Shown here: in pieces, positions 12,524-57,760 of the stretch
Layout of the letters: every line of letters begins with the position of its first letter
Numbering within the stretch: the stretch's first letter is position 1
Source of the DNA: a virus
Length of the DNA: 57,760 nt
IMG/VR virus record: IMGVR_UViG_3300006793_000033
Location: 1-57,760 of that record
Reading direction: 5' to 3' (one strand)
Translations under genes and position numbers: made by a program
The notes under the pieces: model-generated
Told to the model about the DNA's origin: nothing
What the model saw: only the letters and a program-made list of their open reading frames with translations
Databases searched by the model: none

Positions 12524-12558
12524 GCGGATAGCATAAACAGTACTCTACCTGTTACACT

Positions 12559-12590
12559 GTGGCCAGGTCTCTTCGGGGAGGCCTGGCCAC
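12559..12590 (+). terminator. Terminator hairpin with UUCG loop after the tube gene
   Basis: Arms GTGGCCAGG (12559-12567) and CCTGGCCAC (12582-12590) are perfectly complementary. The inner part can pair further (TCTC with GGGA, leaving GG unpaired) around a TTCG tetraloop at 12572-12575. It is followed by TTTCATTC. Together with its site after sheath and tube this is a convincing rho-independent terminator or 3'-end stabiliser. Confidence 0.75.
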
Positions 12591-12611
12591 TTTCATTCAC
12601 GAGGGGTGCGC

Positions 12612-13463: not shown

Positions 13464-14149
13464 GTATGTACGGATTCGAGTACTTTTGTGGCGCCAATGT
13501 TGTTGTTTCTATCGAGGGGCTGCCCCTTCTGGAGGCAGCCGGTTTGCAATACCAAGTCGACGACACCAAGATCCCTATTTACGGGTACAGCAGTCGCCAC
13601 TATGATGCTGTGGCTGCGGGCCAAGTGATTGTAAGGGGTACTTTGTTGATCAATTACATTCACCAGGACTATTTGTTTCGAGCTGTGCAGCGCGGCCTTG
13701 GGCAGACGCTCTCTGAGACACCTGTCGACCCAGCGCCTATTGGCGCCAATGGGCAGCTTACAGACTTTGCTGCATTGTCCCAGCATGATGCCGCAGCCGC
13801 TGCCTTCATCGAAGACATGAAGCTTCAGTATTGGGCTAGTGAAACTCTTGCGAATCCAGGGCGGCACTTGAATCTTACGAGAAACCCTCACGACCTCCAC
13901 GGTGGAATCAATATTGCTGCTACTTTCGGAGCGCAAGATGCGATGAGACCAGCAGGTAAAACGGGACTACTGCTAGTAGATGTTCATTTTACAGGCAGGT
14001 CTTCCGTGATTAAGATTGATGAAGAAGTAATCGTCGAAGCATACCCATTTTTCGCTCGCGACGTCTTCTCAAGAAGGAACCCGTACAAAGAAAGTACGGT
14101 TGAAGCCCTCAGCGATGAGGCAACAGTATTTGCTGTTGAATCAAATTAA
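13460..14149 (+). CDS. Tail tube-like paralogue 3
   Basis: 229 residues, ATGA overlap with paralogue 2 (an alternative ATG follows at 13466). FEYFCGANVVVSIEGLPLLE and LQYQVDDTKIPIYGY match the first half of the tube pattern (cf. KAPIYVM in the main tube), and GQVIVRGTLLINYIHQDYL aligns with the IAGTIITLMLDQH strand. The C-terminal part is unrelated to the others. Three tube-fold genes in series suggest rings with different roles, for example main tube, tube initiator at the baseplate and tube end at the neck. That division is inference. Confidence 0.6.
   Translation: MSMYGFEYFCGANVVVSIEGLPLLEAAGLQYQVDDTKIPIYGYSSRHYDAVAAGQVIVRGTLLINYIHQDYLFRAVQRGLGQTLSETPVDPAPIGANGQLTDFAALSQHDAAAAAFIEDMKLQYWASETLANPGRHLNLTRNPHDLHGGINIAATFGAQDAMRPAGKTGLLLVDVHFTGRSSVIKIDEEVIVEAYPFFARDVFSRRNPYKESTVEALSDEATVFAVESN
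13739..13750. repeat. 12-bp palindrome, found twice in the window
   Basis: ATTGGCGCCAAT occurs here and again at 28031-28042. Both lie in coding sequence; recurrence of the same palindrome may be chance. Confidence 0.5.
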
Positions 14150-27800: not shown

Positions 27801-30800
27801 CGTTGGAGTTTCAAGAAACGAACCCATACGTTGGTGAATTCATCAGCAGCACTGCCCCAGCCGCTATCGAGCTAGAAGAAGCTTACTGTCAGATTCTGAA
27901 GAAGTTGTATGAGTGGGATTTCGATGACAAGTACAAAGACGTCCTGACTCAAATCCTGATTGCCCAACTAGCCGGCAGTCAGACAACTAATCCTGGCGAC
28001 CCTGATTACGGCCAGTACGAACTGCAGTATATTGGCGCCAATCAGCTTGATGATATCGATGGCGTTGCATTGTATAGTGACGGAGCTTCTGAATACGTGG
28101 TCTTTGGCGACTCTGATCCTGCTCTTGCAAAACTCTTGCAGGCCGCACAAAGTGGGGTTGTGAGAATGCCTGGGACTGCGATCCTGGGTGTTCCTGCAGC
28201 GATCCTGGGTCAGCCGATCAACATCACGCAAACTACCGACCTGGGACGCCAGGCGGTACCAGGGCTTCTTCCTGGCGCAGGCGGGATCTCATGGGATGCA
28301 ACCGAGACCGTAATTAACTATCGCTACGATATCAGCAAGCTACTAAATCAGACCCAGTCGAATCAATTGTCTGCTGAAATTCCGCTGGCAAAGATCCTAG
28401 ACTACTGGGCGCTGGTGCACGAGACTATTGTCTCGGCCGAAATGATGTTGGCTGAAAATCAGCTGCAAGTGGCTAACCAAACAGGACGAGTTGAGCCAGG
28501 AGGCATCAGTGAGGAAACAGCCTACCAGGAATTGTACTGTCTACCTGTGAGGCCTTCGCTCTTCAAGTATTTTCAAGAGTGGCTTAAGATCGCGGCCGAG
28601 GAGCTAGCAGTTGATCTTGATATTAGACGCATTCCCCCGGGCCAGGCTACATGGCAGCTTGAAAACAATATCAACTGGATCTACTGGGAGAATCCTCTGG
28701 AGCCACATCAGCTCGGAAGAGTTAAGCCTAGTAATGCCCAGAAAGCTTTTGCTATTGCCGAGGCAGCAGGTCATGGCGTACTCAAGACGCTAGACGTTCA
28801 GTTTACTGCTATCACTGCTGTTTTGGGATTCGGCGAGCACCATGGGATTCGGACCCTCCTAGGCGAAGACCCGAGCCAGATTGAAGGCCACTTCTCTAGC
28901 TTTGTTGAGAGCCAATACGACCTTACTGCTACGCAAGTGGCTAAAAACTACCTGTGGAACCTACCCCTAAGGGAGCTTGCGGTTCAAGAAAGGTTCAAGA
29001 GCTATGTTACAGAGAACATTTTTGGCGACATCACCGGCACCCTAGTTGGTCGTGACGGAAGTCCCGTGTTTGAAAATTTGGTAGATCAGCTCAAAACTGT
29101 TGTTTCGTCTTGCGGGTATTGGATCCCCTCGGCGCACCCTGGCGCAAATCCTTGGTTCTTTGTCGGTGACACTATCAAGACTAGAACTAATGACGACTCT
29201 TACCTTCTGGAAGGCGGACACCTAACCCCCGATGTTGACGCCAAGGGCAGGGTTGAGGTTCCAACCTGGAACCCTGCCAGTGGCACTGCGGCTCATTTCC
29301 TCGCTAACGGAGCCAAGGGTATCTATAGCTGGAACGATCCGTTTATCTGGCGAGTAAACCCTGAGGGAGAGCAAAGCAAACTTAATTTCTTCAAGGGCGT
29401 GCTAGCTAGATACGCCGAGAACATCCGACAGGACTTTAGTTTCCTGAGAGCCTTTGGACTCTCTGGTCTCGGCAACATCAGTAGTCAGGCGCGCATTACT
29501 GGCGCTCCTGCCTACCCGGACTTGGATCTCCCACATCACCCGTACTATGGCGTTAGCACTTCTACGTCTCCTGACTTCTACATGTGGAACATTTACGAGG
29601 ACGCAGGCGCCAGCGACCCAGATACGGTCGACGCAATGTACGAGGCTATGTACTCCATTGTTGAGAACTGTTATCGAAGCATGAAGGGCCTAGAAGAAGG
29701 TTCTGCGCACAAAGATAAGATAGTACTTGAGCCTGGAACGGAGGACAAGATTATCATTCCTCAAGGCTATCGAGCTGAAGGCACCGACAGTAGCGACCGA
29801 GGCCCCACTGATTTTCCTTACGCGCCAAACCCTGATGCTGCGACCTCTAGGGTAAAGTACTTCGAAGAACTTTACAGTGAAGTAGAGAAGTCCGAAACGC
29901 AAACTCAGGACCTAAGCAAGAAAGCCGCAAAGCTTGCAACAGCAACCGCCACGCCAGTTGCTGGCGACCTGGTCGAGACTCTTGTTAGTCCGTCTATCAC
30001 TCGGGACCAGATTGACGCTTTGGGTAGCACTCAAATCCTAGACTTCAGGATGAGCCTTGGCGAAAACTTTAATGGCGTGGGCGGCGGGGTCCAGTACCCC
30101 CGCCGCATGCCTGCGGAGAAGTACGAGGAGCTAAAAACTACAGCTGCTGGAATCAAGCAAATGTTTGGATCCCGAGCTGGATACACTCTCGAAAAGGATT
30201 TTCCAGACGACGTCACGAACTCAACTAAGGGTACTGTTATTGAGCGTGACACCGACCCTTCCCATAGGTTCAACATTGAAAGCATCAAGGCGCTAGCCAA
30301 AGCTAGCGCCAAAGATATCACTAGTCAGAAGCGCACTATGCGTCGAGCATATCCAACCTTTAAGCTCTTTTTTGTCGAAGAAGATGAGTTTGAGAGTCGG
30401 CTACTGAACTTTGACGACTTCTTTAGCTACAATGGCGTCACAAGCTTCACTGTCGTTCAAAGTCGAAAGAGCCCAGCAGATCATGCTGTCATCACCCTCC
30501 TTAATGTCGGCGGCTCTCTTGATGGCACAAAGCGAGATGCCATCGTTGATCTAGATTACTACTCTGCTGAATTTTCTAAGACGAAGATTCCTGGAGAAGG
30601 AAGCAAGACTGGCGGCGACACGAATACCCAAGGCACTGCACTCGACCAACCGTTCGGAGCCGTAGTCCTGCGTCCAGGCTTGAATGTACAATTGCGAGTT
30701 GGATACAGCAACGACCCTGATGAGCTCCAGGTGCTTATCAGTGGTCGAGTTGCAGATATTCAGTGGAATGCTAGTGGGGACCGCGCAGAGCTTATGGTGC

Positions 30801-33800
30801 AGTCGTTTGGCACCGAACTGATGCAAGCTATCAAGGGCAGTTCTCATACTGATGATGCGCCCACGTATCCGACCACACACCACTTGCTTGGAGCCATGAT
30901 GCTTGAGCCTGAATTGGCTCACTTTGGTCGCTGGGAATTTGGACAGATTTATCAGCACGGCGAAGGCAGTGACGCAACACTAGATTTCAACGATTACTCT
31001 AGGGACGCTTTTCTTGGTCGCTTCAAAGCGTCGAATGCAGCTATGGAATGGATGCTAGAGCACCCGGTCATCACTGGAGCGTTGATTATTGGTGGTGGTG
31101 TGATCTTGAGCAAAGCCCCAGGGTCTGGAAGGCTCTTCCGTGGGGTTGCTAACAAGACCAGTACGGGTGGGTGGACTCACCGATTGCTATCCAGGCTGGG
31201 CATTACAGGCTCGGCTCCTGGCCAGCAACTATGGTTGAAGCAACTAGTTGACGTCGCAAGGACGCGCGCCCCTGGCAGTGTATTCAATGCAGGCAAGGGG
31301 ACACTCACTGCCGCCGATATTGCGGCAGTGAGTGCACAAAATGCAGGCCAGCGAGCTGTAACCTTCAGTCTCCTAAGGGAGATTAGTAAGAGAGCATTCG
31401 AAGCTGGTGCCACCAAAAATCCTCAGACCATTATTGCTCGGGCCAGAATCATTTTGCGAACAGCGACAAAGAAAGCCCTGGAGCCAGGATTGCCTCCAGG
31501 CAGGGTTGCTAGCATTATGGCTAGGGCCGATGCAGAAGTGATTGCGCTTGCGCACAGAGGGCAATGGATGACCAAGCCGGCCTCTTTCAGTTTTTCAAAG
31601 AACTTTCTCCTCAACGTTGGTGGACAGCCTATTCGAAACCTTGGGAGAGGTTTTATTCGAACTGTGCCTCAAGGTATCGCTGCAGCATCTGGTTTCGCTC
31701 TAGGTGCAGACGCACTTCTTTATGTGTTGGGGCCCCAGGTCCAACCACACATTGATCGTGTCAGGGCATATTTCCGAAGCAAGAAGGCTAGCATGTTTCT
31801 TAGTCCGCAAGACGACAACTTGTATCCGCCCCACCCTAAAGACTACATGGAGATCTATGACGCTGGGTACAAGGAGATGCTCAAGCAACTGGGTGCCTGG
31901 ACTATTCGAACTGGCATCAGCGCTTTCACATATAGTGATGAGCTTGGTTACGGTGCAGCGCGCTGGGCCCTGGGCTACGACGCACTAGATAAGAGGGTGG
32001 ACCCTAGTCTTTGTGAATTCTCGGTAACCGGACAAACAATTTGGGATGTGTTCCATGAAATGTCACTAAGACATCCCGGATGGATCTATGGTGTGCGGCC
32101 ATATGGGAACAAATTTCGTTACACTATGTTTTTTGGTGTACCTAGTCAACGATATTGGGCACGGCCTGCACACAACCAGTTTGTCTCGCGAGCCAATGAC
32201 CTCGCGAGACTCTTGACTTCCAGAGGTGACGATCCCGACATCACTATTGATGAGTACCTCAGGCTGTATGGCGGGGACTTTGGTGAAGACCAGAGCATGG
32301 AGGCAGTAACCGAAAACTTGCTGCTAGATGCGGCAGATGCGGCAATTGCAGAGAACTATCGCATCAGCGGTCGCAACACTGGTGATGGCGGCGAATTCTT
32401 CGTGCGCCAAGCTGCTATCGGCCAGGGCAGCTCAGCGCTGCACACGATCGGTACGGATGGCGAGCTGCACAGAACTTACGAGAATGTAGATACTGTTGTC
32501 ATGGATTCTGATATTCCAATTGAAGAGAGCCGCTTCTACAAGGCTGCGATTAACTCAACCCTGAGCAGTCGAGCTATTAAAGAATACATGACTGCGCTGG
32601 AGCTAAGGTTCGAGCCTTTCCGCCGCTATCATAGTCTTACCTCTGACCACGATATCGTTTGGAACGGACTAATTAGTAGCGAAAACGCAGTCTACAATGC
32701 CGTAGATGTTACTTACTTTGGTGAGGACTTCTCTGACGGGCCTGCTGGATCTCAGTTGTTCAAGGCTCACACATTCATTCCGGAGCACAAGCTTAGGGTT
32801 CTTCCGCTAGAACCAAGCTACAATGTTCGTGGTTACGGTATGGCCATGCGTTATGGAATGGGTGCGCTACTCCACACTATGAGGGATATGTACAGGGGTG
32901 AGATCATCTCCCTTGGCAATGCTCGAATTAGGCCTTGGGACATTTGTATCCTGGCTGACTCCTATAACGATATGGTGGGTCCAGTGGAGGTCGAGCAAGT
33001 AGTACACAGCTTTAGCCATGAGACTGGATTCATTACAGAGATCAAGCCTGGAGCAGTAGTGTTGGCAAACGAAACCAGCAGCTGGCCAGTACTGGAGGCG
33101 ATGAAGATGATGAGCCTTGCGACGAAAGACGTTGAAGACTCATTCCAAGGCCTGCGTCTTGGTGACGCAGGGAGCCTGGCGCACGCACTAGACTGGTTGC
33201 TCAACAAGGGGACGGGCGGGTCAGAGGAATACAAGGAGCATCTTGCTGAACGGGTCGAAGCACTCAGCCCGTTTGACGCCTTTGGATTGGAGGATGGAAC
33301 TAGTGACGCTCAAGACATTGAAGAGATTGGTGAAGTGTTGGGTTTCCGAAGTAAAGCAAATACAGCTGCCGTGTGGGTTACCGCTGGAGCCTCTATTGCC
33401 GCGAGTGCCGCGGCTTTCAAGGCTGCGCCACTGCTAGTGAGGGCTGTCCCACAGCTTGGTACTGGTTTTACTAGAATGACGGCTGCGACAACTACAGGCC
33501 TAGTTCTCTTCGGCGGCTCTGCTGCACTAATGGGTATGGCTGGAAGCGCCACTCCATCTCTACAGTGGCTCTTGGGTGGTCCCGTGCTGTTCCTAAGTTG
33601 CTTGCGTGGAGACTCCATCATGATGATTCCACTGATGAAGAACGGTCACCCAATTGTCTCTGGCCTGAACTTGTCTGACCCCTCTATGATCTGGAACAAT
33701 TTCAAGGGAGATCTTGGCCGCTGGGCTGATGACCATATCAGCGGCACCAGAGACTTGTCAGCTATCTGGCGACTTTATGGCACCAATAGCTGGAGGAGGT

Positions 33801-33886
33801 TCAATACCAATACTGCCGCCCCAGACGGAAGCTATTATGACGACAGCCAAACCGCTTATGCGGAGCTGACTGGCGAGGAAAGGTAA
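24827..33886 (+). CDS. Giant baseplate hub protein with M23 peptidase domain
   Basis: 3,019 residues, TGATG junction. N-terminal beta region (about 40-175). An M23 metallopeptidase core follows at about 480-720 with all expected residues: His485 and Asp489 (HVGTDF), His628 (YSHL), His705 and His707 (HLH). Spacing shows about 90 and 45 extra residues inserted relative to LytM. A gp27/gpD-like hub region lies at about 1838-2005 (FDDFFSYNGVTSFTVVQSRK; RPGLNVQLRVGYSNDPDEL; LMVQSFGTELM) and resumes at about 2690-2745 (ARIRPWDICILADSYNDMVG; VVHSFSHETGF). Hydrophobic helices occur near 2075-2100, 2284-2305, 2845-2875 and 2889-2935. Probable role: central hub plus peptidoglycan-cutting tail lysin, fused in one chain. 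Confidence 0.75.
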   Translation: MPGNPQSLEDRIKVESGDLVEVPRADKNLHSFRINDVDLVVPPTDITIQKEDLIHQWRTLRSNASTKIPSGQGQIAVSVIIAFTGGQILDMHRLLVEFRHSPFCYIENRFLRESVVPHWPGTQNMAFTMTGLSIAPMQGSSDTWIMQLDLTWFNYAPYLHNWFYRLDWHTVPVRAEGELEEQEPVEITIGWDWDGERKIPRHTILPGLFGEDSEIRTWNVVSNKYNDREVLSIEQMQELHRGEIFDLQPLPNRMQPAAMVSRPDQSRIYTRYINYLQRDALKRNFGIDVEGDLRTPDGKPTAVSSAMFSAVLEGERRRTFSLHSGPPRDSSIYRAWRAAADKWITNINSYHGGVVFSFAAYNELRLPAEYAEAIQRAHADSIENAKNDLGLKNEFAPEWVDHFDYDGMVNMRREPRVFARSLVRRGWTDPNGKYVPIGPLGSLVPYDVDKVPLPDLSIGQTAHVSYRGPDTAKRLYGSESLHRMHVGTDFPTQIGQPVFAVADGYVAKANNHKTSDDGIFKLMQLDDDDWAPLFDAVYAEAPVPNTNSPRDQESSGPNDFERSLRAHVPGVKFHGPGNVIETDAGYWPVGTAVPSIDIPGAYYVVMPTPGGKGITLSHSDDELSIYSHLSEVLVSQGERVDAGQLIGYTGNTGPFKEEFLKQALDSVQSPVLPHQGGLSQIVPTDEKFLTEGSEEPTSIWKRSAHLHFEYWERLDKDGARDPEYPADEIPRYYHPDKETLCPVDPINSFKLAISGSPVIQVNPVLLRPDDEDVANYLTDELGEDTAGALMETLSALWDDGWMYYDHEASVTNVWWKQFHVNAQRQVGELNENSLKFNPLVLTAVAGGLRHVVANIPILGHEFPTQQHLGSIEPFYSFEFCSLDNLGNGPEYLAGLPKEAQLLLSMRDLLHSNARNFRPVVDSWTVAGDSFVTRLLGSYRHEDVLWKPGEEVVEDPLSGPRKVASDTKLLRRLINTRGTSQTVKGQPGLSCHSLEFQETNPYVGEFISSTAPAAIELEEAYCQILKKLYEWDFDDKYKDVLTQILIAQLAGSQTTNPGDPDYGQYELQYIGANQLDDIDGVALYSDGASEYVVFGDSDPALAKLLQAAQSGVVRMPGTAILGVPAAILGQPINITQTTDLGRQAVPGLLPGAGGISWDATETVINYRYDISKLLNQTQSNQLSAEIPLAKILDYWALVHETIVSAEMMLAENQLQVANQTGRVEPGGISEETAYQELYCLPVRPSLFKYFQEWLKIAAEELAVDLDIRRIPPGQATWQLENNINWIYWENPLEPHQLGRVKPSNAQKAFAIAEAAGHGVLKTLDVQFTAITAVLGFGEHHGIRTLLGEDPSQIEGHFSSFVESQYDLTATQVAKNYLWNLPLRELAVQERFKSYVTENIFGDITGTLVGRDGSPVFENLVDQLKTVVSSCGYWIPSAHPGANPWFFVGDTIKTRTNDDSYLLEGGHLTPDVDAKGRVEVPTWNPASGTAAHFLANGAKGIYSWNDPFIWRVNPEGEQSKLNFFKGVLARYAENIRQDFSFLRAFGLSGLGNISSQARITGAPAYPDLDLPHHPYYGVSTSTSPDFYMWNIYEDAGASDPDTVDAMYEAMYSIVENCYRSMKGLEEGSAHKDKIVLEPGTEDKIIIPQGYRAEGTDSSDRGPTDFPYAPNPDAATSRVKYFEELYSEVEKSETQTQDLSKKAAKLATATATPVAGDLVETLVSPSITRDQIDALGSTQILDFRMSLGENFNGVGGGVQYPRRMPAEKYEELKTTAAGIKQMFGSRAGYTLEKDFPDDVTNSTKGTVIERDTDPSHRFNIESIKALAKASAKDITSQKRTMRRAYPTFKLFFVEEDEFESRLLNFDDFFSYNGVTSFTVVQSRKSPADHAVITLLNVGGSLDGTKRDAIVDLDYYSAEFSKTKIPGEGSKTGGDTNTQGTALDQPFGAVVLRPGLNVQLRVGYSNDPDELQVLISGRVADIQWNASGDRAELMVQSFGTELMQAIKGSSHTDDAPTYPTTHHLLGAMMLEPELAHFGRWEFGQIYQHGEGSDATLDFNDYSRDAFLGRFKASNAAMEWMLEHPVITGALIIGGGVILSKAPGSGRLFRGVANKTSTGGWTHRLLSRLGITGSAPGQQLWLKQLVDVARTRAPGSVFNAGKGTLTAADIAAVSAQNAGQRAVTFSLLREISKRAFEAGATKNPQTIIARARIILRTATKKALEPGLPPGRVASIMARADAEVIALAHRGQWMTKPASFSFSKNFLLNVGGQPIRNLGRGFIRTVPQGIAAASGFALGADALLYVLGPQVQPHIDRVRAYFRSKKASMFLSPQDDNLYPPHPKDYMEIYDAGYKEMLKQLGAWTIRTGISAFTYSDELGYGAARWALGYDALDKRVDPSLCEFSVTGQTIWDVFHEMSLRHPGWIYGVRPYGNKFRYTMFFGVPSQRYWARPAHNQFVSRANDLARLLTSRGDDPDITIDEYLRLYGGDFGEDQSMEAVTENLLLDAADAAIAENYRISGRNTGDGGEFFVRQAAIGQGSSALHTIGTDGELHRTYENVDTVVMDSDIPIEESRFYKAAINSTLSSRAIKEYMTALELRFEPFRRYHSLTSDHDIVWNGLISSENAVYNAVDVTYFGEDFSDGPAGSQLFKAHTFIPEHKLRVLPLEPSYNVRGYGMAMRYGMGALLHTMRDMYRGEIISLGNARIRPWDICILADSYNDMVGPVEVEQVVHSFSHETGFITEIKPGAVVLANETSSWPVLEAMKMMSLATKDVEDSFQGLRLGDAGSLAHALDWLLNKGTGGSEEYKEHLAERVEALSPFDAFGLEDGTSDAQDIEEIGEVLGFRSKANTAAVWVTAGASIAASAAAFKAAPLLVRAVPQLGTGFTRMTAATTTGLVLFGGSAALMGMAGSATPSLQWLLGGPVLFLSCLRGDSIMMIPLMKNGHPIVSGLNLSDPSMIWNNFKGDLGRWADDHISGTRDLSAIWRLYGTNSWRRFNTNTAAPDGSYYDDSQTAYAELTGEER
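27602..27625. repeat. Perfect inverted repeat, 9-bp GC-rich arms
   Basis: Arms 27602-27610 and 27617-27625 around TCTTTT, inside the hub gene. Confidence 0.85.
29246..29278. repeat. Nested inverted repeat, 9 + 5 bp
   Basis: Outer arms 29246-29254 / 29270-29278 (9 bp) enclose inner arms 29256-29260 / 29263-29267 (5 bp), with a G / GG internal loop, in the hub gene. Confidence 0.8.
30081..30106. repeat. Perfect inverted repeat, 9-bp all-GC arms
   Basis: Arms 30081-30089 and 30098-30106 contain only G and C; 8-nt loop; hub gene. Confidence 0.8.
30289..30310. repeat. Perfect inverted repeat, 9-bp arms, CAAA loop
   Basis: Arms GGCGCTAGC (30289-30297) and GCTAGCGCC (30302-30310), hub gene, just before the gp27-like region. 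Confidence 0.85.
31302..31334. repeat. Perfect inverted repeat, 13-bp arms
   Basis: Arms 31302-31314 and 31322-31334 pair at every position around a 7-nt loop; the longest perfect stem found here. Hub gene, between two hydrophobic segments. Confidence 0.92.
32183..32210. repeat. Perfect inverted repeat, 10-bp arms
   Basis: Arms GTCTCGCGAG (32183-32192) and CTCGCGAGAC (32201-32210), 8-nt loop, hub gene. Confidence 0.88.
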
Positions 33887-48330: not shown

Positions 48331-51307
48331 TTCAGCTATTGATCAAAGCTACTTGGCTCAAGTAGATGCTCTTGCTCGCCTCCTGAGAGGTTTTGTTGGT
48401 CGCCGTCAAGCGGCGCCCACGCAGTCAGAGAAGGTACTAATTGAAGCTCAAGCTGTGCAGCTTTTTGAACAACTGCTCGAACTAGACTTCAAGCTGGAGC
48501 AACTCCGAGCTGGCGACTACCCTGAGTACGAAAACTTCCAGGGTGATTACTCGACATTCAACTACTTGCTTCAAGTAAATCTGGCCAAGCTTCGCAAGCT
48601 TGCAGATTTGTTCATCAAGCACTTCAACAGCCAGCAATACGCTCTGGCAGACTTGCTTGGCAAGCTCAAGAGAATCAGGCAGAAGCGCGCAGCACTTGCT
48701 CTGTGGAACAACGAAGATGCAAAATTTGTTCTTGCCGACCATTTCCTGAACCTGGACTGGCTAGACAACAAGCACACTGCTGATGCGAATTGTTTTGTGG
48801 ACACCTCACAAGGCGTCCTGACCCTACCTGTCAGAGACCAGCAAAGTCTGCCTTTGAAGTCCATCACTATCGGGACTGGCTCTAACGGCCAGCCCGGCAA
48901 TAGCGATGAGGCAGTAACTGTAAACAACATCAACCCTGACTACGCAATCAATGGCGACCCAAACAACTGGTTTGAGTACGAGCGCCTTGATAGCGGTCCG
49001 CTAGAACTGAGTCTAGTAGTAGAGCTCACCAAAGCCCAGGTCGTGAACAACATTACGATTGTTCCGCTCAACATTGGCCAGGCGTACACTTACGTAGTGT
49101 CTGACATCTTGCTTAGTACCGCTGGCAAAGGCCAGGTATCAGCCAAGGATCTTGCTGGGCCTCTGGACAAAGACCGAATGCTTGTTCGCAGTGCTGGCAA
49201 CGACACAGAGTGGGGCTTCACATTCCTACCTGCTCTCGCCAAGACGATCACCATCAAGCTTGTGCAAAGCCATCCACATGCAGTCAAGGTCGCTACCAAC
49301 AACGGAAGCGTTGTTGAGCGCAAGCGCTATGCCCTAGGCATCAGTCGCCTCGCTGTGAACCAGCTGAAGTTTGACAGTGTTGGTGGCATCAACAGCGTTG
49401 AACGAGACCTGCCTGCTGGCTTGTACCTTACTGTCCCCACTGTTGATATCTGGCCACCCAAGCCTGAGCTTTTTGACGCTCTCATTGAAGTCTCTTTCGA
49501 CGGCGGAGAGACCTGGCATTCAGCAGAAAATGTTGATGACTCAATCGGTGAGTCTGTCCTGATGGATGGTACGCAAACCAGTATGGTCTGGCGCCTGCGC
49601 ATGCTTCGGGATGACAGTTCCCTCGATAATGCGACCAGTTTTCTTCCTGACAGCAGTCCGGTCAAGAAGACCAAGACGCTCATGAAGGCAGTCAGTGTTC
49701 ACAAGAGCCCTACGACCATCACTCTTCCAGAGCGACCAGCCCGAAGTGAAGTGTTTGCTATCCAGCCACGCATCGCAAGACGAGGTAATCGCTTCAAGCG
49801 CATTTACCTCGGCAGGGGTTCTGGGAAGACCACAAGGTTTGAGCTTCCGTTCAGTCCTATTGGTGATGGACTTGATGCTGATTCGCTCACCGTCTATGCA
49901 AACGGATACGCTTACGAGTACGTTGAAGACAACAATTCGTTGACTGCAGACCAATGGAGCTTTTCTGATGACTTCCAAGAGATTGAGCTAAGCTCCGATC
50001 TTGCTGATGGAAGCAAGGTGGAGATGGTATTCGATGAGGAACGCATGCTGTTTGAGCAGCGTGCGGACGGTTACTACCACCAGATGGAACTTCTGTTTGA
50101 CCCAGACGAAGACAACATCAATATCACGTATCTACCTCGCAGAGCAGCTCGACACACGAAGCTGCTCCCACGAGACAAGCGAATCATCCATCTGGGTGTC
50201 AACAACCTTGACACTGATGGTTTTGTTCTTACGAGCGACAAAGGCACCGCGCATGTGGCCGTAACCACTCGCACGGCTCTGGCTTCTACTGCCAATAGCT
50301 ACATGCTCGATGCTGAGAATGGAATTCTGTGGCTGAACAGTGAGCTTGATGATGAAACCGTCAGGGTTACGTTCGACCACTCAACTGGTCAGGCTTTGAG
50401 CACAGATGCATTCGACGTTGTCTTTGCTGATGAGAGCGTACGTCCCTGGGGCGTGAGGATCGCTCCTGAGGACTTTCAAGCAGCAGAGGAGACTGACACA
50501 GTGGGTGGCGCCCTAAAGAAGCGTGTGAACGTCCTGACGGGATCCTTCACTGCACGCACACCCAAGATTGTTGGTGCTGCTGATGCCATGACGTTGACTC
50601 ACGACTATGTCGTGAAGGGCAGCCTGCGAGTTAGCTCTGACATGTTTGACAGAACATACGTTAATGTCGACCCACAAGAAGTTGACTTTGTTGACGGTCG
50701 ATCTGAGTTCCTTGGACTTGTGCCAATGAACTCAGAGAAGACTGTTGAGCTAACGGCCGATGGCATCGACGACACTGTCAGCTTTACCTTGGCAGCAGGA
50801 GCCTTGTGGTACGAGGGCTTTGAAGTTCTCTTCGGTGACGCTGTCGTGTTTGCAACCTCAGTTGGAAGTGCGGCTGCAGTAAGTTCTACTGGAGAGTACC
50901 ATGTTGATGGTGCTGGTGTTGTTACCGTGTACGTGTCCCCCGGAGGGACACTTTCCGCCGGCATCACTATTCACTATTACTACCAGGACCCAGAGTTTGA
51001 GCCAGCCAACAAGTTCTCTGTGGACTACAAGAGAGGCGTACTCTACGGTGGTTCGGATCTCCAAACTGGAGCTACTGCGAAGTACAAAGCAAGCGCCTAC
51101 AGAGTGGCGTACAATGTGGCACAGGAAGTTGATCGCTATTCCTACGACAAGGGTGCGAACAGTATGTCCGTCAGGACCGAAGGCCTAAAGCAAATCAACA
51201 GTCTCGTTAAGCTTATCTGGGCAGAGAAGACCGAAGAGGAGTCGTTGCGATCTCTGCGTGATTACTTCAGCCCTATCATTTCGCTACTAGCGTTTAGGTT
51301 CACCTGA
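48320..51307 (+). CDS. Large appendage protein, coiled-coil N-terminus and beta body
   Basis: 995 residues, overlapping the previous gene by 11 bases. The first 130 residues are a long amphipathic helix region (LARLLRGFVG, VQLFEQLLELDFKLEQLRAG, LRKLADLFIKHFNSQQYALA), suitable for oligomerisation. Residues about 225-325 (LELSLVVELTKAQVVNNITI ... AKTITIKLVQ) look galactose-binding-like. Later segments repeat a 'DSLTVYANGYAYEYVED' type of unit found in phage fibre shafts. No catalytic motif. Structural role is inferred. Confidence 0.5.
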   Translation: MSVNSAIDQSYLAQVDALARLLRGFVGRRQAAPTQSEKVLIEAQAVQLFEQLLELDFKLEQLRAGDYPEYENFQGDYSTFNYLLQVNLAKLRKLADLFIKHFNSQQYALADLLGKLKRIRQKRAALALWNNEDAKFVLADHFLNLDWLDNKHTADANCFVDTSQGVLTLPVRDQQSLPLKSITIGTGSNGQPGNSDEAVTVNNINPDYAINGDPNNWFEYERLDSGPLELSLVVELTKAQVVNNITIVPLNIGQAYTYVVSDILLSTAGKGQVSAKDLAGPLDKDRMLVRSAGNDTEWGFTFLPALAKTITIKLVQSHPHAVKVATNNGSVVERKRYALGISRLAVNQLKFDSVGGINSVERDLPAGLYLTVPTVDIWPPKPELFDALIEVSFDGGETWHSAENVDDSIGESVLMDGTQTSMVWRLRMLRDDSSLDNATSFLPDSSPVKKTKTLMKAVSVHKSPTTITLPERPARSEVFAIQPRIARRGNRFKRIYLGRGSGKTTRFELPFSPIGDGLDADSLTVYANGYAYEYVEDNNSLTADQWSFSDDFQEIELSSDLADGSKVEMVFDEERMLFEQRADGYYHQMELLFDPDEDNINITYLPRRAARHTKLLPRDKRIIHLGVNNLDTDGFVLTSDKGTAHVAVTTRTALASTANSYMLDAENGILWLNSELDDETVRVTFDHSTGQALSTDAFDVVFADESVRPWGVRIAPEDFQAAEETDTVGGALKKRVNVLTGSFTARTPKIVGAADAMTLTHDYVVKGSLRVSSDMFDRTYVNVDPQEVDFVDGRSEFLGLVPMNSEKTVELTADGIDDTVSFTLAAGALWYEGFEVLFGDAVVFATSVGSAAAVSSTGEYHVDGAGVVTVYVSPGGTLSAGITIHYYYQDPEFEPANKFSVDYKRGVLYGGSDLQTGATAKYKASAYRVAYNVAQEVDRYSYDKGANSMSVRTEGLKQINSLVKLIWAEKTEEESLRSLRDYFSPIISLLAFRFT
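49781..49811. repeat. Nested inverted repeat, 8 + 5 bp
   Basis: Outer arms 49781-49788 / 49804-49811 enclose inner arms 49790-49794 / 49796-49800, with a T / CAT internal loop, in the 995-residue appendage gene. Confidence 0.7.
50702..50736. repeat. Nested inverted repeat, 9 + 4 bp
   Basis: Outer arms 50702-50710 / 50728-50736 (perfect) continue after one C/T mismatch into 50712-50715 / 50723-50726, with a 7-nt loop, in the 995-residue gene. Confidence 0.8.
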
Positions 51308-53316
51308 TGACCAGTACTCCTTACAAGAATACCTTGAGGCGAAGGGCGATTCAGCGTTTCGTCAAAGAGAACCAAAGGTCCCCGTCGGACGCTGAACTCA
51401 ACAACCTTGTTGCGGCCGAGGAGGCTGCGTACCCTACTGTGGACCAGGTAGGGATCGTAGGGTTTGACCTTGACCGCCCCAAGTACAAGGACATCTCAAG
51501 CGTGCAGCTGGAGAACACAAATCGCATGGCCATCCATGACGATTTGACTACGCTGAGCACTCGGCTTGATGACCTGCTTATGCTTCTGGAAGATTCACAC
51601 CGTGGCTTCTACGCCACAAGCAAGCGCATTGGTCGCCTGCTCAACCAGACTGAATCTAGACTGGACAACTTGTTGCTTCTCAATGGCGCTGCTGATGCGT
51701 TCATCACAGGAGTAGAAGAGACTTTCGACACCCAGGAAACTGTCGACCAAACTCTATCTGACGCCCAGGTTGAAAGTAGTTTTGTCACCCTGGGTCGTAC
51801 TGGGTACACCGCAGTCGACTTGGATCACTTGAAGATCACTACTACTGTTGCTGGCCAAGCTAACATCGTAGGCAAGAGCGCGAGCAGTCCAGTAGCTAGT
51901 CTGAAAGAAGACGATGGCACTCTCTGGGAGTACGTTGTTTACACTCAGGACCAACAAGGACGAGTCACACTTGTTCTGTCCCTGGAGCTTCCTGAACCTA
52001 CTTATATCGGTGATATTCGTCTAGCCGGTCTGCCTATTAGCGTCAACAAGAAGATGACTGCCAGCTGTTTCTACAGCCTGGACGGTCAGGCCTTCACTGC
52101 TCTAGGAGATGTTGAGCGCGTAGCTACTGCCGAAATGGCTTGGCAACTTGGCCTAGACAAGGTCAAGAAGATTCAATTCACCTTCAGTAAGGATGCTGCT
52201 GACTCCAACACGACCAGCCGCAATCGTTACATGTATGTCTTTTCACTAGACTCCCTCAAGATCTATGCGGATTCGTATAAGTCTAGCCAGCGCAGCTCCC
52301 TTGTCTGCGGGCCGTATGAGGTAAAGGATGACCAAGGTAATCCTGTGTACTTCACTAAGGCAACCCTTAGTGCCTGTACTTGCGAACCGGAGAACACTTC
52401 AGTTTCTTTCTACCTGTCTCAGGATGGCGTGAACTGGTCGGGTGTATCTCATGATGGTGACGCCGGGAATTACGTATCGTTCTCCGATGGGAGCGCTACT
52501 CAAGCTAGCGCGTTCATCGATGAGTCTCTTTCAGCAGGGGCCGTGTTGGATAATGTCAGCACCATGAAGGACTTGGACTTTCAGGCTGACGGGGTAATCA
52601 ACACATACATCGATAGCTCTTATGTGGATGTTGTTCCGCTGCAGAGTGTGGTGCTAAAGAGAAACGTTATCGTAAGCAGCTCGCCCACCGAGCTGCTTGG
52701 CGCTGTTCCTGGATGGTCTTTTGAAGAGGTCACCCAGCAGTACAGCACTACGATGTATGTTGAAAGTCCTGATGGACGCTACTTGGACCTTGGTAGTACT
52801 AGTGCGTATGTGAATGGCTCGCTTGTTAGCGGCCAGATCTATGTGCCTCAAGGTTACAGTACTTTTGCTACCTCCGATGCTAACTGGATCGAGTTGGATA
52901 CTAGCCTTGCGTCAGTAGACGCGCTAGAAGCAGCCGACCCACTCTACCCCTTCAATCACAAGTACTTGGTTGAAGGGTTCCCCTACCCTGACAGTTTTGT
53001 TGGGGACCGAATCTACCAGGGTGCCAGCGAAATTTTTGGTGACCTAATGGTCTATCGGTCTCCGGAAGAATTTGCTTTCGCAGAAGTAGGCGACGCTTTG
53101 TTCTTCAAAATGTTCACTATTGAAGATGTGAACGGAAACTGGTACATTAAGGTCAAGGTCGACAAGACTGATGCCACTTGGCAACAGGAAATTTTCAGTG
53201 CAGATTGGGCCGTGCAGTCTGCAACAACAAACAAGTTGTACGTGAAGGCTCTCCTCGGGACTTCAGAGACCGGTAGAACCCCTCGGATCGATTCCTTTAA
53301 CGTGAGAGTGATCTAA
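51307..53316 (+). CDS. Large appendage protein, helical N-terminus and beta body
   Basis: 669 residues, TGATG junction. The N-terminus is helical: RRRAIQRFVKENQRSPSDAE, then a coiled stretch (LTTLSTRLDDLLMLLEDSH, LLNQTESRLDNLLLLNGAAD). Residues about 210-320 (LVLSLELPEPTYIGDIRLAG ... KIQFTFSKDAADSN ... YVFSLDSLKIYADSY) again show the galactose-binding-like plan. The rest is beta-rich with paired Cys at about 358-360 (SACTCEP). Same plan as the two genes before it. Role inferred as appendage arm. Confidence 0.5.
   Translation: MTSTPYKNTLRRRAIQRFVKENQRSPSDAELNNLVAAEEAAYPTVDQVGIVGFDLDRPKYKDISSVQLENTNRMAIHDDLTTLSTRLDDLLMLLEDSHRGFYATSKRIGRLLNQTESRLDNLLLLNGAADAFITGVEETFDTQETVDQTLSDAQVESSFVTLGRTGYTAVDLDHLKITTTVAGQANIVGKSASSPVASLKEDDGTLWEYVVYTQDQQGRVTLVLSLELPEPTYIGDIRLAGLPISVNKKMTASCFYSLDGQAFTALGDVERVATAEMAWQLGLDKVKKIQFTFSKDAADSNTTSRNRYMYVFSLDSLKIYADSYKSSQRSSLVCGPYEVKDDQGNPVYFTKATLSACTCEPENTSVSFYLSQDGVNWSGVSHDGDAGNYVSFSDGSATQASAFIDESLSAGAVLDNVSTMKDLDFQADGVINTYIDSSYVDVVPLQSVVLKRNVIVSSSPTELLGAVPGWSFEEVTQQYSTTMYVESPDGRYLDLGSTSAYVNGSLVSGQIYVPQGYSTFATSDANWIELDTSLASVDALEAADPLYPFNHKYLVEGFPYPDSFVGDRIYQGASEIFGDLMVYRSPEEFAFAEVGDALFFKMFTIEDVNGNWYIKVKVDKTDATWQQEIFSADWAVQSATTNKLYVKALLGTSETGRTPRIDSFNVRVI
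52674..52698. repeat. Perfect inverted repeat, 10-bp arms
   Basis: Arms AAGCAGCTCG (52674-52683) and CGAGCTGCTT (52689-52698), 5-nt loop; a flanking T.G wobble would extend it in RNA. In the 669-residue appendage gene. Confidence 0.88.
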
Positions 53317-55200
53317 ATGGCTAACAAGCTTACCGATGAACTTCAGAGCCTAGTCCAGCGCTCCGGTACAAATACCGGACGCATGCGCACTGAGGCTGAG
53401 CGTGCATCATTCAGCGCCAACGTTCGAAAGGACTTGGCATCAATCGTCTATCAGCTAAACGTAGTTTACTACGAGCTGGTGAAGACTCTCAGCAGCGAGG
53501 TCGGCGCCAACGCCTTGGACCTCGGTCTGGCTGGTAACACCGTCTTTACTCATGTCACTGCAACTGAAGCTGATGCTGAGGCTTACTACAGCGCCGACCA
53601 AGCACGAGCTCGTACGATCAAGGAGACTATCGACGTCCTGCTCTCAGAGATTGCACGGTTGGAAAACGAACTACAGGCTGCATTGGATTCAGACGATTAC
53701 GATGACGCGGAGCTTCGTGGACTAATCCAGGGCAACAGCCTGGACTTGCTTCAGCTAGCTAGGGACTCGATGGGGCCTAACTACACGCTTGATGGTGATG
53801 GCGAACCCGACCTGACCTACAGCTTGAGTCAGGCTATTGATGCTATCGGCGCCTTCTTCTCTGGTTTCCCTGGTACCGGCAACTCCTACAGTGCCTCCTA
53901 CCCCACGATGTCTCTCACTGTGCTGCTTAGTCAGGTAACCATTGATACCACGCTGCCTCAGAGCACAATCACTGGTCTTGCTGCTGATCTTGGGTACATC
54001 CGAACATTCATTGGCATGGATACCTCTGGCCCAGAGACCCCTACGTACACTGATTGGTCTGCCAACGTATTCATTACCAACGGCTGGAGTCTGGAGCGGG
54101 CTATTGCCGAGCTTGACACCCAGCTCGGCGCTCATGCTTCTCGCCATGAAAGCGCCGGAGCAGATGAGCTTGATGGCGACCACCTTGATATTGACTACGT
54201 TCCTGCGAATTACACAAGAACTACCGTCCCTATCGCCAATGTTGTCGACCACCTAACAGCTCACTTGAAGGGTATCGATGATGCTCTTGCCGGAATTGCC
54301 ACAGTCACTCTTCAAGACACTTATGATGCAGGCGCTGCAGGCGCTGCAGGCGTTGTCCAGCTTCTGAACTCTCAAGGCAACATCGTTATCAAGGATGATG
54401 CTGGCAGTCCACTAGCCACTCTTCTTGAGTGGCGTGATCAAGCCAATGCTCTTATCGGCACTCTTCGCGACACAGGCATCGAGCTACAAGCAGATCGTTC
54501 GCTTGCTATGAAGCAGTCAACTGTTGACCCAACAGCTGTAATTGGAGAGGGTCGACTGAACACTCGCCCTGACGCTACGTCCGCTGATACAGAGTTGCAC
54601 TACCGAAGCTCTAACTCTGGAAACCCTAATGTGCAGATCACCAGAGATGGCATTGTCAAGGAACTAGAGGTTGGACACACGGTTGTCTACCCTGGCCAGT
54701 TCCAGGTCTTTGCTGCTGGTAACAAGCCCGCGCTGGTTGTTGAAGAGATGACTGACTTTGTTGTTCAGACTCTGGACTTTGACCCTACTACACAGGAGAC
54801 TTGCTACACATCTGTTCCTATCCCTCAGGACGAGCAAGGAGACAGGCCTGCTAGAGTTAAGTTCGTTGGCCACTTTCTCATGAAGCCAAACGGTGGAGGC
54901 TACCCTGGTGGCACTGGCATGGCGTTTGAGATTGCAATCTCTGACAATGTTGGTAACGGAACTATTGGCAACAAGGCATTGATTGATCCAGGGTGGCAGA
55001 CCCCCTTGGTACAGTTCGACAACACCTTGGGTGCCGGTCAAGTTGACAACTTGGTCGTGCTTGAATTCTCTGTTCAAACTCTGGCCACCAATCCCCTGGG
55101 TATCTTGAACATCAAATTGCGCAGAGATCCAGCGAATGCAAATGACAGCTGGGATGATGATGTTGGTCTAGTTGCGCTACATGTGATTTGGTATAGGTAA
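53317..55200 (+). CDS. Tail fibre-like protein, last structural gene
   Basis: 627 residues, directly abutting the previous stop. Residues 1-160 are helical with coiled-coil character (IKETIDVLLSEIARLENELQ). At about residues 272-285, HASRHESAGADELDGDHL is a phrase that recurs in phage fibres near the junction to the distal part. It includes an Ala/Gly run from a 9-bp triple repeat (about 338-346). The C-terminal ~200 residues are a beta-rich globular domain (VYPGQFQVFAAGNKPALVVE ... WDDDVGLVALHVIW) that could be the receptor-binding head. The sugar-modification genes follow with a one-base overlap. Confidence 0.6.
   Translation: MANKLTDELQSLVQRSGTNTGRMRTEAERASFSANVRKDLASIVYQLNVVYYELVKTLSSEVGANALDLGLAGNTVFTHVTATEADAEAYYSADQARARTIKETIDVLLSEIARLENELQAALDSDDYDDAELRGLIQGNSLDLLQLARDSMGPNYTLDGDGEPDLTYSLSQAIDAIGAFFSGFPGTGNSYSASYPTMSLTVLLSQVTIDTTLPQSTITGLAADLGYIRTFIGMDTSGPETPTYTDWSANVFITNGWSLERAIAELDTQLGAHASRHESAGADELDGDHLDIDYVPANYTRTTVPIANVVDHLTAHLKGIDDALAGIATVTLQDTYDAGAAGAAGVVQLLNSQGNIVIKDDAGSPLATLLEWRDQANALIGTLRDTGIELQADRSLAMKQSTVDPTAVIGEGRLNTRPDATSADTELHYRSSNSGNPNVQITRDGIVKELEVGHTVVYPGQFQVFAAGNKPALVVEEMTDFVVQTLDFDPTTQETCYTSVPIPQDEQGDRPARVKFVGHFLMKPNGGGYPGGTGMAFEIAISDNVGNGTIGNKALIDPGWQTPLVQFDNTLGAGQVDNLVVLEFSVQTLATNPLGILNIKLRRDPANANDSWDDDVGLVALHVIWYR
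54126..54157. repeat. Nested inverted repeat, 7 + 4 bp
   Basis: Arms 54126-54136 and 54145-54157 pair with only a bulged AA (54149-54150); 8-nt loop. It overlaps the codons for the HASRHESAG phrase of the fibre gene. Confidence 0.65.
54328..54354 (+). repeat. 9-bp unit repeated three times
   Basis: Three adjacent copies (last one differs by one base) encode AGAAGAAGV in the fibre-like gene; in frame. Confidence 0.85.
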
Positions 55201-56210
55201 TGCGCCGACAGGTCACTAGGCAGGCCTTGCTTCGAAAGAAAACTTCTCAGAAGGCACTGCGAGGTTCTCCTGTGGCTACTCACAGGAGAAGTCCTGGTTC
55301 GTTCTACGAGACCATTGTCTCTAGGGCAGGGCAGGCTCGTGTATGCGTCATCCGCAAGGTCGGTGGAATCGGAGATGTTCTGATGGTTACACCAGCACTT
55401 CGACAGCTGAAGAAGGACTTTCCCAAGCTGCACATCACCTACGCCATCGACATGCATACGACGGGAAGTAACATCTATCATGAGCTAATGAAGAACTGTC
55501 CGTTTGTGGACGAGCTGATTGATGCCAGGTACGTAGATCATGGCACCTACGATGCCACTGTGGATGTCAGTGCAGTCTGCTTGAGGTTCGAACGGCAGGA
55601 ACTTCCTGCCATCAACAGAGTGGACTTGTTTGGAAGAGCCATGGGACTGCGTCGCATCTCGGATCGACGCAGCTGGTACAAGGTCGAAGACGATGAGAGG
55701 CGTTGGGCAGCAGCCCAGTACGCTCACTATCGTTCTGGCGGCAAGAAGATTGTCATCCTACATACGGCCTCTATGGAAGAGAAGCGGTGCTGGCCGATCG
55801 AGAAGTACTTGGAGTTGATTCGACTAGCTGAACAAGATCATCTGCCAGTTCAATTTGCCGTCCTGGATTTCAACAACAAGTACAGCGGTTGGGCCCAGCA
55901 CAGTAATGTGCTGAATGTGTCCGCAACAACCGTTAGGCAAATGGCAGCTCTGATTTCTGAAGCTGACTTGTTCATCGGGCCTGACAGTGGCCCGATGCAT
56001 ATTGCTGGAGCTCTCAACACCAGGTCGTTGGTGTTGTTTGGTTCTATTCCGCCGCTTGCCCGTATCAACTACTATGCCTCTCATGAAGCCGTTACCCTCT
56101 CAGGACTTAGTTGTCTGGGATGCTGGTACAAGGCCTGTCCGATTAACACAAAGTGCATGAAGGACCTGCCTTCTTCTACTGTATACAACAAAATGAGGAG
56201 TCTGCTATGA
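55200..56210 (+). CDS. Glycosyltransferase family 9 (heptosyltransferase-like)
   Basis: 336 residues, TAATG overlap with the fibre gene. After a basic N-terminal extension (about 1-40) comes a GT-B fold start: VCVIRKVGGIGDVLMVTPAL with the Gly-rich turn at residues 55-59. The C-terminal nucleotide-sugar motif is present at about 258-270 (FIGPDSGPMHIAGAL), followed by LVLFGSIPP. A Cys-rich tail (CLGCWYKACPINTKCMKDL, about 305-322) is typical of heptosyltransferase-like members. These enzymes move a sugar from a nucleotide donor to an acceptor glycan. It begins a tightly coupled cassette with a methyltransferase and two sulfotransferase-like genes. Acceptor unknown. Confidence 0.85.
   Translation: MRRQVTRQALLRKKTSQKALRGSPVATHRRSPGSFYETIVSRAGQARVCVIRKVGGIGDVLMVTPALRQLKKDFPKLHITYAIDMHTTGSNIYHELMKNCPFVDELIDARYVDHGTYDATVDVSAVCLRFERQELPAINRVDLFGRAMGLRRISDRRSWYKVEDDERRWAAAQYAHYRSGGKKIVILHTASMEEKRCWPIEKYLELIRLAEQDHLPVQFAVLDFNNKYSGWAQHSNVLNVSATTVRQMAALISEADLFIGPDSGPMHIAGALNTRSLVLFGSIPPLARINYYASHEAVTLSGLSCLGCWYKACPINTKCMKDLPSSTVYNKMRSLL
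55265..55290. repeat. Perfect inverted repeat, 10-bp arms, near gene start
   Basis: Arms TTCTCCTGTG (55265-55274) and CACAGGAGAA (55281-55290), 6-nt loop, 65 bases into the glycosyltransferase gene. AGGAG in the right arm could be hidden by pairing. Confidence 0.85.
55647..55672. repeat. Inverted repeat, 8 + 3 bp with one bulge
   Basis: Arms 55647-55654 / 55665-55672 (8 bp perfect) extend by ATC/GAT after a bulged C, in the glycosyltransferase gene. Confidence 0.65.
55973..55997. repeat. Perfect inverted repeat, 9-bp arms
   Basis: Arms CATCGGGCC (55973-55981) and GGCCCGATG (55989-55997), 7-nt loop; they cover the codons of the conserved GPDSGPM motif. Confidence 0.85.
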
Positions 56211-56782
56211 GCAGCTATCCACCCAGAACAATTCGAGCCTTGGAGCAACTGAGGCTCGTCAGTGGCCTTGAGGGAGACATCATTGAGTGTGGTGTTTTTC
56301 GCGGCCAGACAACTATCGCTATGGCGATGTACCTGAAGAGGAATGGCATCGACAAGAAGATCTATGCCTGTGACACCTATGGCGGACTCCCTTATGACGG
56401 TGGAGCAATCGATCCAGATCTTAAGGCTGGTGAGTGCACTGCTGACTTCAACACCTTTTGGTCGAATGTAAAGGCAGCTGGTGTTGAAGACTACATCATC
56501 CCCATCCAGGGCCTTGTAGAAGAAACTCTGCCAGCAGAGTTCGCTTCGCATACTTTCTGCCTGGCCTTCCTGGACCTGGACTTGTATGAGCCCACTTCCT
56601 TTTGCGCTAAGTTTCTGGCCTTGAAGATTGTGCGTGGAGGAGTCATGGGTTTTCATGACTACAAGTTTGAGCGTTGTCCGGGAATTGAGATTGTAGTTGA
56701 TCAAGAAGTAGACAAGAACCTGTACCATAAGTATGGTGACACACATGGCAACTGTGCATGGTTGCAGCGGAGGAGATCATGA
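56207..56782 (+). CDS. TylF/MycF-like O-methyltransferase
   Basis: 191 residues from the ATGA overlap (56207); an in-frame ATG at 56153 lies inside the glycosyltransferase gene. It shows the SAM-binding motif EGDIIECGVFRGQTT (residues 22-36), the acidic ribose-contact segment YACDTYGGLP with Asp56, and metal-site acids in LAFLDLDLYEPT (Asp123, Asp125), then RGGVMGFHDYK. The TylF family methylates sugar hydroxyls (for example in macrolide glycans) using Mg and SAM. It is shorter than the usual ~250 residues and seems minimal. As a neighbour of a sugar transferase and sulfotransferases it probably methylates a hydroxyl on the transferred sugar. Confidence 0.8.
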   Translation: MSSYPPRTIRALEQLRLVSGLEGDIIECGVFRGQTTIAMAMYLKRNGIDKKIYACDTYGGLPYDGGAIDPDLKAGECTADFNTFWSNVKAAGVEDYIIPIQGLVEETLPAEFASHTFCLAFLDLDLYEPTSFCAKFLALKIVRGGVMGFHDYKFERCPGIEIVVDQEVDKNLYHKYGDTHGNCAWLQRRRS

Positions 56783-57501
56783 AGTCTTTGATTTTGCTGG
56801 CCTTTCCCAGATCTATGTCGTCGTTGATTGCCTCGGAGATTGGGCTGGCGCTTAAACACGAGCTTCCTTACCAACCCTACCCTGCTTCCAAGGAGCTTCT
56901 CCATCACACTACGATGGGTCTGGATTGGACAGAGTCGTACGAAAAGCGCAGTGGAAAGTTCAGACAGTACAAGATTGACCTGAACAGATACTCGTCAGAT
57001 GGATTTCTGAAAGATGTCCATCAGCCGTACATGGTGGCAAAGTATCTTGAGACCTACTCGGGGTTGTACCAGCCGTTGTTCTTGCAGAGGGAACTGACTG
57101 ATGTCACGTACTCTATTGCGAAGGCAGGTTGGTGGTGGCCTATCTTGGCCCTTGGCAGGCGTGGTCGTGACATCTATGCGCGCTCAGTAACAGAGTGGAA
57201 CCAGCATGGGTATCTTACGGACTACCATTTCGCACATTCTCTGCCAGCTCTTGTTCGTGGACTAGTACTTACTTATCGTGACTGCTACGCGTCGGTGGAA
57301 CATGTCCTTCGATACGAAGATCTTATTCAAGATCCTAATGTTCTTTGGGACAAGTTGGAAGAGATGGGGTATGAGCCACGTCGAAGAAGTTATATCGACA
57401 ACGACTTTGTCCAGGAGCGCGAGCGGATTGCGGCACGTAGATCAACTGAGCTGTGGAACGTGATTGCTGGAATCGTCGATCAGGTGCGAGCTAGTCTTTG
57501 A
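56779..57501 (+). CDS. PAPS-dependent sulfotransferase-like protein 1
   Basis: 241 residues from the ATGA overlap (56779). It carries both PAPS-binding elements of sulfotransferases: an N-terminal 5'-phosphosulfate loop, LILLAFPRSMSSLIASEI (PRS at residues 10-12), and a 3'-phosphate motif, LQRELTDVTYSIAKAG, with Arg104 and Ser112 eight residues apart as in the cytosolic family. RYEDLIQDP near residues 178-186 is another family hallmark. It would transfer sulfate from PAPS to a hydroxyl, most likely on a glycan given its neighbours. Its stop overlaps a TTG start of a related gene. No signal peptide or membrane anchor, so it should act in the cytosol. Confidence 0.75.
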   Translation: MKSLILLAFPRSMSSLIASEIGLALKHELPYQPYPASKELLHHTTMGLDWTESYEKRSGKFRQYKIDLNRYSSDGFLKDVHQPYMVAKYLETYSGLYQPLFLQRELTDVTYSIAKAGWWWPILALGRRGRDIYARSVTEWNQHGYLTDYHFAHSLPALVRGLVLTYRDCYASVEHVLRYEDLIQDPNVLWDKLEEMGYEPRRRSYIDNDFVQERERIAARRSTELWNVIAGIVDQVRASL

Positions 57502-57760
57502 AGTCCCTGATTATCACATCATTGCCCAAGTCCTTCAGTACACCGCTTTACAGGATCGCCCGAAGAGCTCTCCCTTGGTACAAGAGCGAGAGTAAGGTGG
57601 CACGTCATGGTGAAGTCTTCAGCTTGATGCCTGACGGACTGGAGAGACTCTATGGTGATGGTGACGCCCTGGCTGTAGCACAGTTTTTTCAACAGTACTC
57701 TAGTGGCTATCTGGTCAAGGATGTCCTAGCACCAGGTGTCATGAAGCACCTGGTGAATGA
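57498..57760 (+). CDS. Sulfotransferase-like protein 2, N-terminal part (3' cut)
   Basis: The frame is open to the window end (87 codons) and begins at TTG 57498, overlapping the previous stop (TTGA). The first residues, MKSLIITSLPKSFSTPLYRI, parallel MKSLILLAFPRSMSSLIASE of the preceding gene, including the P(K/R)S phosphosulfate loop. Further on, YSSGYLVKDVLAPGVMKHL parallels YSSDGFLKDVHQPYMVAKYL. So it is a diverged tandem paralogue rather than a fragment of the first. The start is unusual and the C-terminal PAPS motifs lie outside the window. Function is inferred from the paralogue. Confidence 0.65.
   Translation, partial: MKSLIITSLPKSFSTPLYRIARRALPWYKSESKVARHGEVFSLMPDGLERLYGDGDALAVAQFFQQYSSGYLVKDVLAPGVMKHLVN
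57730..57755. repeat. Perfect inverted repeat, 9-bp arms
   Basis: Arms CACCAGGTG (57730-57738) and CACCTGGTG (57747-57755), 8-nt loop, in the truncated sulfotransferase-like gene. Confidence 0.85.

Follow-up and report, generated by a model that had tools for sequence, protein, structure and literature searches.

The window, an entire IMG/VR contig of 57,760 bp (a 57.8-kb viral fragment), ends in four genes for a GT9 glycosyltransferase, a TylF-family O-methyltransferase and two sulfotransferase-like proteins (ST1 and ST2). These genes close a structural operon, and it is quite probable that they form a glycan-modifying cassette, whatever the acceptor may be. In the closest relative the flanks of the cassette are retained and TylF and ST1 are replaced by unrelated genes, suggesting that related viruses keep the slot and exchange the decorating enzymes, giving a changeable chemical coat of the virus or of its host.

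Position of the cassette in the structural operon

The main open reading frames of the window all lie on the + strand, and the structural operon occupies about 55 kb. It codes for a portal protein, a protease-like protein, a major head protein, a tail sheath and tail tube-like repeats, together with a 3019-aa tape-measure-like protein, baseplate wedge proteins and distal structural proteins, and GT9, TylF, ST1 and ST2 are the final four genes before the contig end. Four further records, G001, G002, G003 and G004, all of them fragments, were recovered by scanning IMG/VR, and no cultured virus is known from the group they form with the window. The sheath and GT9 proteins of G001 are 94% and 85% identical to those of the window, the sheath of G002 (192 kb) is 72% identical, and the GT9 of G004 is 54% identical. 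G003 was dropped as a separate lineage, as it shares 99.98% identity with G002 across 5.6 kb and its sequence stops short of the cassette. The features at the end of the window are as follows:

51307..53316, + strand: structural protein of the virion, encoded upstream of the cassette; 669 aa; match to PHROG 19683 ('virion structural protein'), E 5.1e-13; 89% identical in G001
53317..55200, + strand: distal structural gene, putative tail-fibre, constant left flank of the cassette; 627 aa; a homologue precedes GT9 in G001, G002 and G004
55200..56210, + strand: GT9 glycosyltransferase of the heptosyltransferase type, the constant first gene of the cassette; 336 aa; PF01075
56207..56782, + strand: TylF-family O-methyltransferase; 191 aa; PF05711; replaced in G001
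56779..57501, + strand: ST1, sulfotransferase-like, from a family that Pfam lacks; 240 aa; FPRSMSS loop, R104/S112, Foldseek match 4gbm
57498..57760, + strand: ST2, ST1 paralogue with a PKS loop, incomplete, with 87 codons before the contig end

The open reading frames and junctions were read directly, and the four genes, their coordinates and their overlaps of 1-4 bases all agree with the original prediction, which did not mention the truncation of ST2. The gene at 53317-55200 ends in TAATG, within which GT9 starts at 55200; GT9 and TylF, like TylF and ST1, overlap in ATGA, and ST1 and ST2 overlap in TTGA, ST2 having the start codon TTG. The cassette had been described as following a tail-fibre operon. 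The product of 51307-53316 does match a virion structural protein, but the fibre label of 53317-55200 is positional, and Pfam and PDB searches with its product returned no match.

Two further observations concern the structural genes. The PHROG matches of the 3019-aa protein (24827-33886) are endolysin, peptidase and tape-measure proteins. Three consecutive genes located after the tail sheath (11882-14149) match one PHROG (9206, 'major head protein'), and they are probably tail-tube paralogues.

Enzyme families of the cassette

The GT9 protein matched PF01075 with an E-value of 4.8e-21 (75.7 bits; curated cut-off 22), and the motifs G-D59 and GPDSGPMH, the latter including the predicted GPDSGPM, can be read in it. 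A four-sequence GT9 profile matched the structures of 3tov (GT9; E 1.5e-9) and WaaC (E 7e-4), and the GD and DTG/DSG-H motifs were aligned. The window protein shares with WaaC, WaaF and 3tov the PF01075 profile match and the catalytic Asp in the GD motif, and its GPDSGPMH corresponds to the DTGLSH sugar-nucleotide motif of the GT9 heptosyltransferases. It differs from them in being phage-encoded and in a basic N-terminal extension of about 45 residues. Its best NCBIfam matches are LPS heptosyltransferases, each below its equivalog cut-off; by family membership ADP-heptose may be the sugar donor.

TylF matched PF05711 with an E-value of 2.2e-15 (57.1 bits; curated cut-off 23) and carries EGDIIECG, the SAM motif, and DLD. 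Profile matches included NovP (E 6e-7), CalS11 and MycF-type enzymes, and the nearest solved structures were NovP, the O-methyltransferases 5i10 and 4cdz, CalS11 and mycinamicin III O-methyltransferase. It has in common with the TylF/NovP/MycF sugar O-methyltransferases the SAM motif, LDLDLYE, the (H)DY region and the NovP alignment; however, it is shorter, and in the Asp triad for metal binding and catalysis D123 and D151 are aligned and His150 replaces one Asp of the DDY motif. A homologue in G004 is 61% identical. Relatives in other viral contigs show 27-33% identity, and no PF03567 or PF13469 match was found anywhere in their records, so TylF alone is no predictor of a sulfotransferase. 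No bacterial relatives of TylF or ST1 were found in genome contigs, a weak negative obtained with only two peptide patterns for each protein.

With these Pfam searches the GT9 and TylF calls are secure, and the E-values exclude chance for both. For GT9 and the ST2 fragment chance is also excluded by codon-level constraint against G001: dN/dS was 0.043 for GT9 and 0.13 for the 87 codons of ST2, and 0.05 and 0.10 for two structural genes, all rough values, as synonymous sites are near saturation. These ratios indicate purifying selection on the flanking genes.

ST1 carries the FPRSMSS loop (PRSMSS at residues 10-15), the segment K78-D79-V80..P83, a YEDL motif, and R104 and S112, which stand 8 residues apart, the spacing of R130 and S138 in human SULT1E1. 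The PRS/PKS loop follows the first strand, and the KDV..P segment is invariant in the ST1/ST2 family. The G004 homologue of ST1 is 30% identical and has Cys in place of Ser112. In ST2 the PKS loop is readable, and the contig ends before the Arg/Ser part. The full-length ST2 gene of G001 (L014:17069-17824), 71% identical to the fragment, keeps the 3'-phosphate Arg, and no Ser aligns. ST1 is similar to this full-length protein (BLASTP E 3e-11; z 16.5 against shuffles; hhalign 97%), and by such comparisons ST1, its G004 homologue and the G001 ST2 are one family.

Neither ST1 nor ST2 matched a sulfotransferase in Pfam, NCBIfam or PHROG, including PF00685, PF03567 and PF13469. Direct comparison with the PF03567-type proteins of the relatives gave scores at chance, and membership among those phage sulfotransferases is therefore not claimed on sequence. 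A single-sequence AlphaFold model of ST1 (pLDDT 34) was discarded; a model from three sequences was modest (mean pLDDT 56, pTM 0.56). Its top Foldseek match in the PDB was the CurM (curacin) sulfotransferase 4gbm (E 8e-4, probability 1.0, TM about 0.36), and the majority of the top 18 matches were PAPS sulfotransferases or SULT-fold enzymes, with TM only about 0.36 and with kinases lower in the list. Several named sulfotransferases were also matched in a viral library, none with E < 0.001. Structure prediction, which had been proposed as a check, put mostly PAPS sulfotransferases at the top of the fold matches of ST1, although with a weak model. Compared with PAPS sulfotransferases (PF00685, PF03567 and PF13469; CurM ST, SULT, TPST), ST1 and ST2 share the PRS/PKS 5' loop, and ST1 also the Arg/Ser spacing and, from the weak model, a tentative fold match, but their family is recognised by no library.

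Two tandem sulfotransferases had been predicted. For ST1 the PRS loop, the Arg104/Ser112 spacing and the fold search agree with this, and for ST2, more weakly, the PKS loop and homology do; a sulfotransferase match in Pfam was missing for both. ST1 is probably a sulfotransferase. ST2 is by homology its paralogue, and sulfotransferase activity is only somewhat probable for it, because the 3'-phosphate Ser is missing from its full-length relative. ST1 and ST2 may therefore represent a candidate new sulfotransferase-like family, which goes beyond the original prediction.

Exchange of genes at a constant site

Four lineages were compared (the window, G001, G002 and G004), a small sample found via structural genes and GT9 and hence silent on diverged viruses from which the cassette has been lost. 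In all three relatives GT9 directly follows the distal structural gene, so that GT9 is present in 4/4 lineages, and each lineage also has one or more methyltransferases and one or more genes of the sulfotransferase type. The genes that follow GT9 differ. In the window they are TylF, ST1 and ST2. In G001 they code for a PF03567 sulfotransferase (E 1.9e-9; PHROG 3347 'Galactose-3-O-sulfotransferase', E 1.5e-21), a Methyltransf_11 protein, a polysaccharide pyruvyl transferase (PF04230, E 4e-10) and ST2. In G002 another GT9 comes next, with a methyltransferase, a sulfotransferase of the PHROG 3347 type (E 2.6e-8) and an EcbF-like HAD phosphatase. In G004 a 221-aa protein with a DD motif and no library match, which could be a glycosyltransferase, is followed by a sulfotransferase-like/methyltransferase fusion, TylF, the ST1 homologue and an EcbF-like phosphatase. 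The fusion (L013:4979-6283, 434 aa) combines an N-terminal Sulfotransfer_1-like domain (weak match, E 1.4e-4, just under the cut-off) with a C-terminal SAM methyltransferase. PHROG 3347 matched only the enzymes of relatives, not ST1 or ST2.

The exchange is sharply bounded between the window and G001. Nucleotide similarity of 76% runs from the structural genes through GT9 to about 56167, close to the 3' end of that gene, and homology resumes at 57499, at the start of ST2. Between these points the 1.3 kb of TylF and ST1 in the window correspond to an unrelated 2.2 kb in G001, which code for the PF03567 sulfotransferase, the other methyltransferase and the pyruvyl transferase. This module swapping at a fixed site was not part of the original prediction.

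A small coiled-coil-like protein ending in ESIEEEPL is encoded after the cassette in G001 (L014:17826-18039), where it follows ST2, and its homologue likewise closes the operon in G002 (L023:13453-13698). Among the 24 tRNAs of G002 is one with a CTA anticodon (L027:7188-7260; amber suppressor, named tRNA-Pyl by ARAGORN). TAG stops were found in 0/33 late structural loci of G002 versus 35/191 loci elsewhere (Fisher p 0.003), and in 0/35 in the window, so the structural genes seem to avoid TAG. Recoding of TAG was rejected: many early G002 genes end in TAG, there was no general gain from read-through, and the standard code was kept.

Proposed function and acceptor

Glycan decoration is the function suggested by the combined enzymes for sugar transfer, O-methylation and sulfation, to which the relatives add pyruvylation and sugar-phosphate phosphatases. 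The original prediction of a glycan cassette is upheld by GT9 and TylF and strengthened by the sulfotransferases, methyltransferases, pyruvyl transferase and EcbF-like phosphatases that relatives carry in the same slot; the calls of ST1 and ST2 are less firm. Our preferred reading, for which the balance is about even, is a modular, probably late-expressed glycan-decoration cassette of a large contractile-tailed phage with a virion protein as acceptor. GT9 would transfer a first sugar, probably heptose-like, from a host nucleotide sugar to the acceptor, and the variable genes would then decorate this sugar, TylF adding O-methyl groups and ST1, perhaps with ST2, a sulfate from host PAPS. The acceptor would most likely be a virion surface protein of the same operon, probably the adjoining distal tail or fibre protein, and recombination of the decorating genes would alter the surface chemistry of the particle. 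The five records, all of which are fragments, yielded no domain of an APS kinase or PAPS reductase and no family-2 glycosyltransferase, so the phage would have to draw PAPS and sugar nucleotides from its host. The predicted dependence on host PAPS is accordingly plausible, as far as such fragments can tell.

The main alternative is that the cassette modifies the LPS or capsule of the host late in infection and masks the receptor against superinfection or re-adsorption of progeny. GT9, TylF, the polysaccharide pyruvyl transferase and the EcbF-like phosphatases are the kind of enzyme typically encoded in cell-surface polysaccharide loci, the closest NCBIfam models of GT9, all below cut-off, are LPS heptosyltransferases, and GT9 relatives of known function act on LPS, which weighs against a virion acceptor. 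However, in 4/4 lineages the genes close the structural operon and are translationally coupled to a virion protein; moreover, the cassettes showed no gene for a transporter or polymerase, and no family-2 glycosyltransferase turned up in the five records. By position and coupling to the virion gene the virion tail is the most likely acceptor and the host surface a possible one, and we regard modification of the host as the less probable, though serious, explanation.

ST1 and ST2 could also be P-loop proteins of another function, leaving GT9 and TylF alone to act on a glycan, which would be compatible with either acceptor. The failure of ST1 and ST2 to match library sulfotransferases or to resemble the PF03567-type proteins, the kinases in the fold list of ST1 and the lack of the 3'-phosphate Ser in the G001 ST2 are consistent with this. 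Nevertheless, the top fold matches of ST1 are mostly PAPS sulfotransferases, the PRS/PKS loop has no GxGKT, ST1 has the Arg/Ser spacing, and true sulfotransferases fill the same slot in relatives, making another function unlikely. Hypermodification of viral DNA bases against restriction is very improbable. Some phage glycosyltransferases do have DNA as their substrate (Pyle 2024, as cited in PMC12619734), but GT9 and TylF are sugar/LPS-type families and the cassette lies within the structural operon, not among replication genes.

Decoration of the virion has precedents. In mycobacteriophages virion glycosylation is established, capsid and tail tube subunits carrying glycans (Freeman 2023, as cited in PMC12619734). 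The putative virion-decorating cassette described here differs in its methyl- and sulfotransferase genes and in their exchange between relatives. Sulfotransferases recur in marine phage genomes, where their role is stated as unclear (PMC10580990), and together with the PHROG of their own this makes them less unusual in phages than had been implied; the cassette is in this respect a variation on a known theme. As the sulfotransferase-type enzymes are encoded at a defined place after a virion gene, alongside a glycosyltransferase and a methyltransferase, and the set varies between close relatives while the flanks stay, a small gene set offers a concrete hypothesis for sulfation of virion or host glycans. 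The full proposal, that these phages place sulfated, methylated glycans on their own tail by means of a hypervariable recombining cassette and an undescribed sulfotransferase family, is tentative. If true, virion surface chemistry would be varied by swapping enzymes, with the fibre protein itself unchanged. The phage 'PAPS sulfotransferase' of two Burkholderia papers was set aside, being PAPS reductase, a different enzyme.
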